A stretch of DNA of 64,000 nucleotides from Methanosarcina sp. MSH10X1. GTDB taxonomy: Archaea; Halobacteriota; Methanosarcinia; Methanosarcinales; Methanosarcinaceae. The notes below the pieces were generated by a model. It was not told the origin of the DNA, did not search any database, and saw only the letters and a program-made list of their open reading frames with translations. Of this stretch, positions 2,863-57,433 are shown piece by piece. The stretch's first letter is position 1; each line of letters starts with the position of its first letter. The stretch spans positions 208,351 through 272,350 of the forward strand of contig NZ_SCHL01000002.1 of NCBI RefSeq assembly GCF_004099695.1. Direction: 5' to 3'. Made by a program: the position numbers and the translations under genes.

Positions 2863-4233
2863 ATGCGTATACTGGATACTAAGGCGTTAAAAGGAATAGT
2901 ATGCGGACTTCTTGTCATAGCAATCTTTTCGATTGCCTGTGCCGGAGCAGGGGATGGAAGTACTGTCACATCTGCAAAAGAAGTACAACCAAAAGTCGGG
3001 GCAAGCGTTGAATCATCTTCGATTTATATTGCTGATTATTTCCCCGAATTTGAGAAGATCAGGGTTGATCCGGCTTATAAGTACCTGCAGCTTGATCCCG
3101 GAAACAGTGATAACTTTACTGTAACCGTAGAGAATCAAGATAACAAGACAATCAGATTAAAGCCGGAACTTTTAATCACTCCTTACACGGAAAATTTCAT
3201 GAACGAAAACTGGACCAGTATAAGTCCCTCAGAAAAAACTCTGAAGCCCGGAGAAAAACAGGAATTTCAGGTAAAGGTGAACATACCTGAAGATGCCGAC
3301 CTTGGAAATTATGCCGCACTTATTGCTTTCACGGAAAAGGTGCCTGAGGGAGACATAGCTGGCTATTATCCGAATTTTCCGGGCACAATGCAGTTGAATA
3401 TAGAGCTAAGGGTCAGGCCTTCAATCCAGATCCTTACGCCATATGTCAATGACCTTGTGGAGGCCGGAGAGAGTTATACTTATGAAATAAAACTCCGGAA
3501 TACAGGTGATAAAGATATCGCAATTTCCCCTGAACTTACCAGAGCAGGGGGTATCGTTTATGCTGAAGATGCAGCTTCCTCTGCAGGAATACCGCAGCAG
3601 GCTTTTGGAGACGATGCGATAAGAGTAGAAGCCCCTGAGATAATTAAAGCCGGACAGACAGCTATTATCGAACTGACACTTGCAGTTCCGGCTGATGCAA
3701 AGGGCAGTTATACCGGCAGTCTTGACCTGAATATTGATGACCCCGGAATTCGCGAATATGAAGAACTGGTTTCCCTGAGCTTCCGCATTCTTCCGGTTCC
3801 GGAGGAACCTTACGAGAGTAGCTTTGAAGCTGAAACCGATGGACCCGTCACTCTGGAGATTAAAGCTTACCAGTATGGGTACGGCCTGTATACGACCGAA
3901 GGAAACCGAGATCTTACGCCTTCCTTTAATGTGAGCCTGATAAATCCCTCAGGGGATGAGGTTACTCCTGTTCTTGTAAACACAAAACATAGCGGCTCGA
4001 TAAACATAGTAGATGATACATACCCGCAGCCGCCATATCCCATGCCTTATATATCCTCAAGAATTGCGGACGGTATGGAAACTTACGATCAGGGGAATTA
4101 CCAGGGAGGAACCACAACTTTTGTGAAGACCTATTCCGCTCCCGGAGCTGCAGGAAAATGGACGCTTTCAATCCTGCCCAGAAATACCGAGAACTTTGAG
4201 TATACCGTGACAATCGGAGCTGCTGAAGAATAA
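2863..4233 (+). CDS. secreted protein with tandem Ig-like (NEW3/WxL-type) domains
   Basis: Start chosen at ATG 2863 because GAGGTGA lies 6 nt before it; an in-frame ATG at 2845 has no such site. The N-terminus is a signal peptide ending in FSIACAGAG, and the Cys gives a lipoprotein-like but imperfect lipobox. The mature part (about 430 residues) contains beta-rich domains: one with the NFTVTVENQDNKTIR and LKPGEKQEF signature of NEW3/WxL peptidoglycan-binding-like folds (about residues 70-190), a second similar one (about 200-320), and a C-terminal beta domain ending in WTLSILPRNTENF. It is probably exposed at the envelope. No anchor follows, so attachment would rely on the lipid or on partners. 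Its function is unknown. It stands alone with its own promoter region. Confidence 0.75.
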   Translation: MRILDTKALKGIVCGLLVIAIFSIACAGAGDGSTVTSAKEVQPKVGASVESSSIYIADYFPEFEKIRVDPAYKYLQLDPGNSDNFTVTVENQDNKTIRLKPELLITPYTENFMNENWTSISPSEKTLKPGEKQEFQVKVNIPEDADLGNYAALIAFTEKVPEGDIAGYYPNFPGTMQLNIELRVRPSIQILTPYVNDLVEAGESYTYEIKLRNTGDKDIAISPELTRAGGIVYAEDAASSAGIPQQAFGDDAIRVEAPEIIKAGQTAIIELTLAVPADAKGSYTGSLDLNIDDPGIREYEELVSLSFRILPVPEEPYESSFEAETDGPVTLEIKAYQYGYGLYTTEGNRDLTPSFNVSLINPSGDEVTPVLVNTKHSGSINIVDDTYPQPPYPMPYISSRIADGMETYDQGNYQGGTTTFVKTYSAPGAAGKWTLSILPRNTENFEYTVTIGAAEE

Positions 4234-54787: not shown

Positions 54788-55210
54788 TCAATCCTTTTCC
54801 TCAATCTCTTTTAAGTAAGGCTTGATATCCAGTACAGGCGTACCATTGATTGCATCGAGGCCTTTCACATAAAGCACGTTGCCTTCTACTTTTACAAGCT
54901 CTACAAGAGTAAGCCCTATTCCGTTAGGGCGGAAAGGACTCCGGCTTGCAAAAACTCCTGCCATCTCCCCGTCATAACGACGACGACTAATTAGCTTATA
55001 CCCTTCGGAGCGGCTAAAGTAAAAAAGTATGTAGAGCTTTTCAAGCTCTTCTACCCGGTAAAGTCCGTCTGTCAGTTCGTTTTTCAAGATGATCTTCGAA
55101 ACCTTCTCGTAGATCTCTTCATTGAATACCGGTTCAAAGTAATCATTTTCCACATAGCCTATAGGGTTAAACTCTATCTTTTCGGGAAATTCTTCAGGAC
55201 CTTTATTCAT
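54788..55210 (-). CDS. trmO: tRNA t6A37 methyltransferase TrmO-like
   Basis: 140 residues from ATG 55210, which overlaps the end of the FmdE-like gene (ATGAATAA arrangement), so translation is coupled. FNPIGYVENDYFEPV, then RSPFRPNGIGLTLVELVKVEGNVLYVKGLDAINGTPVLDIKPYL, is the complete TrmO (YaeB/VirR) signature: it methylates N6-threonylcarbamoyladenosine at tRNA position 37 with AdoMet. DRDRS-like catalytic motifs are not obvious, so substrate is by family inference. It is at the shorter end of the family. Confidence 0.85.
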   Translation of the reverse strand: MNKGPEEFPEKIEFNPIGYVENDYFEPVFNEEIYEKVSKIILKNELTDGLYRVEELEKLYILFYFSRSEGYKLISRRRYDGEMAGVFASRSPFRPNGIGLTLVELVKVEGNVLYVKGLDAINGTPVLDIKPYLKEIEEKD

Positions 55211-55787
55211 CTTTTGCCTCAAAACAGGGAATACAAACAATTTCTCCATTTCTTACCCTGCCCAGAGGTTCCATAAAGCCTTCCCCGCAGCTACTGCAGA
55301 TAAGGGTTGGGTAAATTATGGCTTTTTCAGGCGGTTTGATTTCCACTTCCCTAACCCAGAAAAGCTCTTCCTCTGGCATTTCCAGGACTCTCTGGCTTTT
55401 TGCATTATGGGATGCCCGAAACTCTTTTTCTTCTTCAGGGCTGGCAGTACCAGCTCTAAGCTTTGCAAAGAGCGCAGTATGCTTTTCGTCCTGTGGGAGA
55501 ACATCGGGTCTCAGGGAAATTCTCAGGGCTTTGTTATCGCCTCTTTTGAAGAACGTGTAAACATGTTTCCCATGATCCTTGAAAATAAGGTTCCCCTTCC
55601 CGCAGGTGCAGCCGTTTATTGCCTGAATCGCATCCACGGCACAGGAACGGTTTTCTACAATTGCGACCAGTTCTTCATCTTTGCTTCGGTCTTTGAAGCG
55701 GTCAGCGGCGAGTGCTGCTATCCTATAGCCAATGGAGAGCCCGGGGCAGACATGTCCATGAAACTGTACTGCAGTATCGAAATTCAA
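55203..55787 (-). CDS. FmdE-family protein with C-terminal zinc ribbon
   Basis: 194 residues: FHGHVCPGLSIGYRIAALAADRF and VDAIQAINGCTCGKGNLIFKDHGKHVYTFF form the FmdE domain, named after formylmethanofuran dehydrogenase operons. A CSSCGEGF ... CIPC zinc ribbon ends the protein. Its role is unproven, perhaps molybdenum or tungsten cofactor handling for the dehydrogenase, or a metal-binding regulator. Co-oriented with trmO and overlapping it by 8 nt. No fmd structural genes are adjacent. Confidence 0.88.
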   Translation of the reverse strand: MNFDTAVQFHGHVCPGLSIGYRIAALAADRFKDRSKDEELVAIVENRSCAVDAIQAINGCTCGKGNLIFKDHGKHVYTFFKRGDNKALRISLRPDVLPQDEKHTALFAKLRAGTASPEEEKEFRASHNAKSQRVLEMPEEELFWVREVEIKPPEKAIIYPTLICSSCGEGFMEPLGRVRNGEIVCIPCFEAKDE

Positions 55788-56132: not shown

Positions 56133-56158
56133 GAACCTGATTCGGTTCACTTTATATA
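56133..56158 (+). promoter_or_regulatory. Palindromic operator and TATA box of candidate RNA
   Basis: GAACC (56133-56137), six bases, GGTTC (56144-56148), then TTTATATA (56151-56158). A further GGTT/AACC pair overlaps the first arm. The palindrome sits where a repressor would block TBP/TFB. Confidence 0.55.
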
Positions 56159-56179
56159 GTATGAATAATGAATAACCCG

Positions 56180-56352
56180 TTCTGTCCAGTTAAAAGGTAA
56201 AAAAGCTTTAAAAGTAATATCTTACTGTACATACAATTCTTCAAAACGAATTGTGATAATTGGGAGCCTTTTGCCACCTCTGATAGGCTCCCAATCGCGT
56301 GATTCAACCCCTACGATTAAGAGAAAAAACCCCTTAACTCTTAATCGTTGAC
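56180..56352 (+). ncRNA. Candidate structured small RNA
   Basis: No ORF, but four consecutive perfect hairpins follow a TATA box: AGTAA/TTACT near 56213-56226; ACAATTC/GAATTGT 56233-56254; ATTGGGAGCC/GGCTCCCAAT 56259-56295; and ACGATTAAGAG/CTCTTAATCGT 56313-56348. The loop of the third contains CCACCTC, complementary to a ribosome binding site. The start is an estimate from the TATA position, and the 3' end is unknown. The rest of the spacer (55788-56132, 56353-56644) has no gene. Confidence 0.5.
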
Positions 56353-56644
56353 TTCCTCTTTATGTTATAGAGGTATATAACCTATACGACTTTGAAATTT
56401 GTCTTGCATTAAATTATTTAGCCGCCTCAAAATCCGGTTTACAGGACTAATAACCATCTGCTTACCCTGCGTTTTTCAATGGACTAAATAAAGTTTAATC
56501 AGCTGTAAGAAATCTATGGTTTAACCTTATCTTAATATTTATTTTAGGCTTCTATCAGGTTCCTGTTTATAGCTGGTCTCCGGAATAAATGAAATTGAAA
56601 AATGAGGAAGATATTTATTAAGTAGCTGCATATATAACAAAAAC

Positions 56645-57433
56645 ATGGACAGCCAGCTTCTGGAATTGATTTTTCTCTCCGAAAAAAGGAAGGATCTTAT
56701 TTTATTTTTGAAGGAAGAGCCAAAATCGATCTCAGAGATTAAAGAAAGCTTGAATGTAGGTCTGGTGGCAATTCTTCCTCAATTAAAAAGGTTGAGGGAA
56801 AACTCCCTGGTCTCAAAAGCAGGCGACGTTTATAGTCTGTCTCCTCTCGGGATAGCGGTAGCTGGCAGAATGCAGCCAATGATAGATGTCCTGAACGTCT
56901 TCGGAAGTAAATATGAATACTGGGAAAACCATGCGGTGGAATCCATACCCGATCCTTTGCGGAAGCGGATAGGCGAGCTGGCTAACTGTACTTTTTCGGA
57001 ACCTCCTGACAGGACGCGCCTCTTTGAGCCTCACAGAGAATTTGTGGAAAACCTTATGAAATCAAAAAAAATAAATGGCATTGCCTCAATCTTTCATCCT
57101 CTCTATCCATCTCTTTTCCTTGCTTTTGCAAAGAAGGGGGCTGAAATCTCCATCCTGGTAACTCGACCTGTTTATGAAAGAACAAAAGAAGAATATGGAG
57201 CCGAGCTAAGCGAGTTTCTTAAATTCGAGAACGCCAGTTTTTACGTTTGCAATGGCAGAATAGAACTATCCCATGTAGTTACTGACAGGTTCCTTTCTCT
57301 CACCCTGCCTTTTTCTGACGGTACCTTTGACCATAAGGAAGATGTCCTGTGTTTCGACCCGGTAGCCCTCAAGTGGGGAGAAGACCTTTTTGCCTACTAC
57401 AAAAACGTTTCTGACAGAATAACCGAAATCTAG
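56645..57433 (+). CDS. ArsR-like winged-helix regulator with FilR1 (DUF1724) domain
   Basis: 262 residues. The N-terminal winged helix (residues 5-80: FLSEKRKDLILFLKEEPKSISEIKESLNVG, LKRLRENSLVSKAGDVYSLSPLG) is followed by the middle domain known from methanogen regulator FilR1 (LFEPHREFVENLMKSKKINGIASIFHPLYPSLFLAFAKKGAEISILV, about 120-230). FilR1-like proteins are common in Methanosarcina and control methanogenesis or adhesion genes, but the target of this one is unknown. TATTTATTAA about 30 nt before the ATG and the absence of a ribosome binding site suggest a leaderless mRNA. It lies downstream of the candidate small RNA. Confidence 0.82.
   Translation: MDSQLLELIFLSEKRKDLILFLKEEPKSISEIKESLNVGLVAILPQLKRLRENSLVSKAGDVYSLSPLGIAVAGRMQPMIDVLNVFGSKYEYWENHAVESIPDPLRKRIGELANCTFSEPPDRTRLFEPHREFVENLMKSKKINGIASIFHPLYPSLFLAFAKKGAEISILVTRPVYERTKEEYGAELSEFLKFENASFYVCNGRIELSHVVTDRFLSLTLPFSDGTFDHKEDVLCFDPVALKWGEDLFAYYKNVSDRITEI

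Follow-up and report, generated by a model that had tools for sequence, protein, structure and literature searches.

A predicted multicopy small-RNA family of Methanosarcina with candidate targets among surface-polysaccharide and aggregation genes

Background

To our knowledge, few archaeal small RNAs that act in trans have defined targets, and the closest described systems are those of Methanosarcina mazei. sRNA162 is 191 nt long with three stem-loops and a 39-nt linker that is its most variable part; it lies between MM2441 and MM2442, is present once each in M. acetivorans and M. barkeri, and forms with sRNA171 a set of two sibling copies in M. mazei adjoined by the overlapping MM2440-MM2441 pair (PMC3510493). 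The single-stranded linker of sRNA162/171 pairs with mRNA and masks the ribosome-binding site (PMC3510493). sRNA154 is a conserved RNA of about 130 nt whose hairpin loops pair with mRNAs, and is located between MM3337 and MM3338 near mtmB2C2 with a potential NrpR operator, GGTA-N6-TACC (PMC3177094, PMC5867862). A third RNA, sRNA41, is a repressor that acts by masking the ribosome-binding sites of ACDS mRNAs (PMC5867862), and the predicted RNA would resemble it where pairing covers such a site.

The predicted RNA described here was found in the window, the whole 64,000-nucleotide stretch of Methanosarcina sp. MSH10X1 DNA under analysis. As in sRNA162/171 (PMC3510493), it would be an intergenic Methanosarcina small RNA near a regulator gene with a single-stranded linker, for which pairing is predicted, but it differs in having two hairpins, a length of about 105 nt, a short conserved linker (<20 nt), 1 to 13 copies per genome and another locus. 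The regulator gene starts about 290 nt from the RNA, which leaves too little room for MM2440 between them. A conserved Methanosarcina RNA with hairpin loops also recalls sRNA154, raised as a candidate identity in the original prediction; locus and anatomy set the two apart. The NrpR operator GGTA-N6-TACC was absent from the promoter of the element when read by eye, and in genome G009, which we take to be M. mazei, mtmB is present at 1.650 and 3.992 Mb and the element at 3.796 Mb, a distance of about 195 kb to the nearer mtmB. Judged by locus and by anatomy as described for them, the RNA is neither sRNA154 nor sRNA162.

A search with Rfam 15 at the curated gathering score gave no match in the window or in ten loci with paralogues, and only sub-threshold matches were seen; by this comparison the predicted family is absent from Rfam 15. 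Some of its members may be among the M. mazei small-RNA candidates of 2009. In organisation the family resembles Qrr of Vibrio, a set of multicopy sibling small RNAs with a common unpaired motif and shared targets; the pairing motif is G-rich here, whereas it is C-rich in the bacterial siblings. LhrC of Listeria is similar by description, with several similar small RNAs, a common unpaired motif and shared targets (PMC4132741). Unlike LhrC and Qrr, the family is archaeal and has a candidate target leader with several repeated sites.

Results and discussion

A conserved two-hairpin element

Very probably the hairpin cluster represents a gene for a small RNA. A conserved block at approximately 56250-56425, including a minus-strand TATA box, was present in 29 of the 30 Methanosarcina genomes searched, the remaining genome being 60% complete. 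This gene most likely occupies the minus strand, from about 56352 to 56245, because the minus-strand TATA box is conserved, the plus-strand TATA box and palindrome are not, and G-U pairs favour the minus strand, with 23 G-U cells in the stems of the first alignment versus 8 if the plus strand were transcribed (A-C on the minus strand).

The predicted RNA (56245-56352, minus strand) is about 105-110 nt long as judged by conservation and promoter position, its 5' end being placed from the spacing to the TATA box and its 3' end from the loss of conservation past hairpin 2. Hairpin 1 (56314-56347, minus strand) consists of CGATTAAGAG-TTAAGGGGTTTTTT-CTCTTAATCG and showed compensatory changes in the family alignments. 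It is followed by a single-stranded linker, TAGGGGTTGAATCACGCG (56296-56313, minus strand), which corresponds to the conserved unpaired part of the family and is the proposed pairing site, and by hairpin 2 (56259-56295, minus strand), which reads ATTGGGAGCC, loop TATCAGAGGTGGCAAAA and GGCTCCCAAT. Mean identity over 31 loci was 0.93 for hairpin 1, 0.89 for the linker and 0.95 for hairpin 2, and was 0.58 immediately beyond hairpin 2. The loop of hairpin 2, AGAGGTGG, did not vary in 31 aligned loci of the window's subfamily, termed A, and is AGAGATGG in the paralogue L037; the subfamily A loop AGAGGUGG looks like a ribosome-binding sequence. Two of the three frames of the minus-strand transcript region contained stops and the third was open and lacked a start codon, and the earlier observation that no gene-size open reading frame crosses the hairpin region was confirmed.

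The predicted promoter, GTCGTATAGGTTATATAC (56373-56390, minus strand), combines TCG with the TATA box GTTATATAC at 56381-56373, which had a mean identity of 0.99 over 31 loci. Beyond it the alignment of the same number of loci contained a conserved upstream block, CTAAATAATTTAATG...AAATTTYAAAG (56390-56421, minus strand). By sequence, the element is an independent gene with its own promoter, as is looked for in a trans-acting base-pairing small RNA.

A multicopy family with a shared promoter

A covariance-model search identified diverged copies in 3 of 27 genera and in 35 of the 185 genomes of the order, with between 1 and 13 copies in each of these genomes. Subfamily A is the type found in the window, B is often located about 520 nt downstream of A, and the remaining copies were designated C. 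Among the C copies are tandem ones flanked by genes for a decarboxylase and a 2-oxoacid:ferredoxin oxidoreductase, and single ones amid PAS/histidine-kinase genes. For 78 members, RNAalifold predicted 16 pairs, eight of which had pair-keeping changes on both sides. The promoter consensus ATCGGTTATGATATATA was located about 28 nt before hairpin 1 in 55 of these members, and in most of the exceptions, including subfamily A, where the promoter is somewhat farther from hairpin 1, the TATA box was outside the distance window of the script (judged by eye). Second units of tandem pairs had no promoter. The family therefore has what is expected of multicopy sibling small RNAs, namely several copies per genome with a shared structure, promoter and pairing motif.

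Two further arrangements were observed in the G000 assembly. Three family copies occur among PAS/histidine-kinase genes at locus L076 (C11:271000-288500), one of them adjoining a LysE-type exporter, a setting that may hint at signal-dependent control. Short tandem repeats of GAATTGCGCCTCGCCC are located between two family copies at L075 (C11, around 3960-4010).

Predicted pairing of the linker with a flippase leader and disaggregatase-like mRNAs

Among the unpaired parts of the family, the linker GGGUUGRAUCRC is conserved best. This genome has ten copies of its complement, GATYCAACCC: six belong to family genes, three are clustered within about 160 bp in a single leader, and one is in the start region of a gene for a secreted protein. 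The operon behind this leader encodes a small unknown protein and then a polysaccharide flippase (PF01943). In the 24 closest orthologous flippases of the genus, taken as one sequence per genome, every leader contained complements of the C linker that were 9 nt or longer, and such stretches numbered 80 overall, compared with a mean of about 2 and a maximum of 7 in leaders shuffled to preserve single-base composition only. Because these 24 leaders share ancestry and are in part repetitive, their sites do not count as independent. The longest matches included ACCTGCGATCCAACC, which covers 15 nt with zero mismatches, while leaders of six paralogous or more distant flippases had no C-linker-complementary sites. 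When pairing energies with the C linker were computed for 1363 start regions (1.63 Mb, two genomes, defined by a simple start-codon rule), the two orthologues of the flippase operon ranked first and second at -31.5 and -30.4 kcal/mol, and the best value from four shuffled linkers was -26.5.

Two other origins of the leader sites were considered and rejected. A hidden antisense copy of the family is not indicated, since the flippase leaders contained no significant match to the family model, and no frame was consistently open across the leaders, most frames having stops, as is not expected of coding sequence. In the leaders of some species (L250-L273), imperfect repeats multiply the linker-complementary sites.

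The secreted protein carrying GATYCAACCC in its start region contains a disaggregatase-related repeat (PF06848, 2.8e-85). Across eleven disaggregatase-like loci, ATCCAACCCAAAG, a 13-nt match to the C linker, adjoined the ribosome-binding site in five and an 11-nt match did so in a sixth, while the other five genes had no linker match; these matches belong to the linker of the sibling C RNAs. A second, apparently truncated disaggregatase-like gene start was seen separately at L169 (G000:C22 near 341267), where 13-nt matches to the C linker and to the hairpin-1 loop flank the start codon.

For the family, and less strongly for A, an unpaired region is conserved and so are the sites complementary to it in unlinked mRNAs. 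The reading that we favour, with a probability of roughly 0.7, is that the minus-strand element is one of several two-hairpin sibling small RNAs that pair in trans and regulate surface-polysaccharide and aggregation genes. Transcribed from the minus strand, the RNA would present an exposed G-rich linker between two hairpins, and this linker would pair with the flippase leader and, for the sibling copies, with disaggregatase-like mRNAs. Pairing would change translation or stability of the mRNA, with initiation most likely blocked where the ribosome-binding site is covered, and several siblings would jointly set the surface-polysaccharide and aggregation genes. The description of the element as a regulatory, trans-acting small RNA in the original prediction is probably right, backed as it is by covariation, a shared promoter, copy number and the complementary conserved leaders.

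An unlikely alternative function is that of a protein-binding decoy following CsrB-like logic, with repeated GGG/GGA motifs that titrate an RNA-binding protein. It would account for the G-rich motif that many members carry in each of loop 1, linker and loop 2 and for the invariant loop 2 of A, which has no obvious target, but it would not explain why 24 flippase leaders have conserved complementary sites, and we know of no archaeal protein of the kind that partners CsrB.

Candidate targets of member A

For the A linker, the complement GATTCAACCC was found in this genome only in the A gene itself and twice in the flippase leader. Sites of the A type, GATTCAACC, numbered 11 in 8 of the 24 leaders (shuffled mean 0.12), and one of the two in this genome pairs at a computed -20.0 kcal/mol, the shuffled best being -17.4. 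The A linker showed no enrichment in the start regions (1.63 Mb), and start regions were not enriched beyond composition for the hairpin loop motifs as pairing sites. Several other partners were examined and discarded. The complement of loop 2 (GCCACCTCTGAT), sought as a conserved long target, was almost confined to the gene itself, and a match in the mtmC leader, CAACCCAAAG, was at chance level. The 3' end of archaeal 16S rRNA reads GGCUGGAUCA, and mimicry of it by the linker (GGUUGGAUCA) was rejected as the matches were family members and scattered sites with no 16S gene among them; the archaeal SSU model found no 16S rRNA gene on the G000 assembly, from which the gene is probably missing.

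B or C copies are present in each of the 23 genomes that have a close orthologue of the flippase. Three genomes (G016, G017 and G023) keep A, and neither a flippase orthologue nor a B/C copy was found in their assemblies, two of which are fragmentary (73% and 92% complete) and the third 99% complete; G010 and G021 have B/C copies and no detected flippase orthologue. Because of these partly fragmentary assemblies and the two genomes with B/C copies only, the co-occurrence of flippase and B/C copies is suggestive and no more. The persistence of A in genomes where no flippase was found indicates that A probably has other targets, at least one of them probably older. The flippase leader is the best candidate target of A in this genome, and further targets are likely as well.

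Genomic neighbourhood of member A

In nearly all loci examined, the RNA adjoins a gene for a FilR1-type transcriptional regulator, here the divergent neighbour at 56645-57433 on the plus strand (PF08350, 1.5e-39), and is located upstream of genes for an FmdE-like protein (55203-55787, minus strand; PF02663, 2.9e-46) and, beyond it, TrmO (54788-55249). A cis-acting leader or attenuator of FmdE/TrmO would suit the shared direction of the RNA and FmdE in species where both were seen. This explanation is nevertheless improbable since the spacing between the RNA and FmdE ranges from about 140 to 1390 nt across loci, other copies adjoin unrelated genes such as those for histidine kinases and the decarboxylase/2-oxoacid oxidoreductase pair, and some copies are arranged head-to-tail in tandem.

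The plus strand and the upstream palindrome

The original prediction had placed the small RNA on the plus strand, starting from a TATA box at 56151 and exposing CCACCUC to mask ribosome-binding sites. Its elements exist: the TATA box TTTATATA is present at 56151-56158 and a TATA-like sequence there is common to about half of the species, the palindrome GAACC-N6-GGTTC is present at 56133-56148, and none of 200 shuffles folds as well as the plus strand of 56180-56390 (z -4.75). The TATA/palindrome block (56133-56158, plus strand), however, had a mean identity of 0.53 over 31 loci versus 0.99 for the minus-strand TATA box, the G-U/A-C balance of 23:8 favours the minus strand, and the promoters of the paralogues are on the same side as the minus-strand one, which together make plus-strand transcription very improbable. 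The palindrome carries no evidential weight as an operator because 89 inverted repeats of the 5-N6-5 form occur within the 64-kb window and even the two closest relatives carry a changed version of this one. Several of the four hairpins noted earlier are present, and only those at 56259-56295 and 56314-56347 are conserved, while the exposed CCACCTC anti-Shine-Dalgarno loop is absent from the likely transcript, where the loop is AGAGGUGGC and not CCACCUC. On the minus strand the sequence at 56151-56158 reads TATATAAAG and may serve as a promoter for FmdE/TrmO.

A mobile or REP-like palindromic DNA repeat with no RNA function would be multicopy, hairpin-rich, intergenic and sometimes tandem as observed here, but the conserved position of A across most of the genus, the G-U pairs in the stems, the conserved promoter and the conserved unpaired linker make it extremely unlikely.

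Conclusions

With covariation behind its structure, a promoter common to its members and a conserved candidate target leader of several sites, the family can be put directly to the test. Methanosarcina cells rely on the polysaccharide methanochondroitin and on disaggregatase to aggregate and disperse, and how this is controlled is poorly understood (PMC12369344). A polysaccharide flippase and secreted proteins related to disaggregatase, the candidate targets here, would be expected in such a process; the flippase may export methanochondroitin, and the secreted proteins may disaggregate cells. As a tentative extension, which we hold with distinctly less confidence than trans-acting regulation by sibling RNAs, the siblings may balance capsule formation against dispersal genus-wide through the flippase leader and the disaggregatase-like ribosome-binding sites, with A having a further, older target. 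If this were true, sibling copy number and promoter input would add up on the flippase and disaggregatase-like targets.
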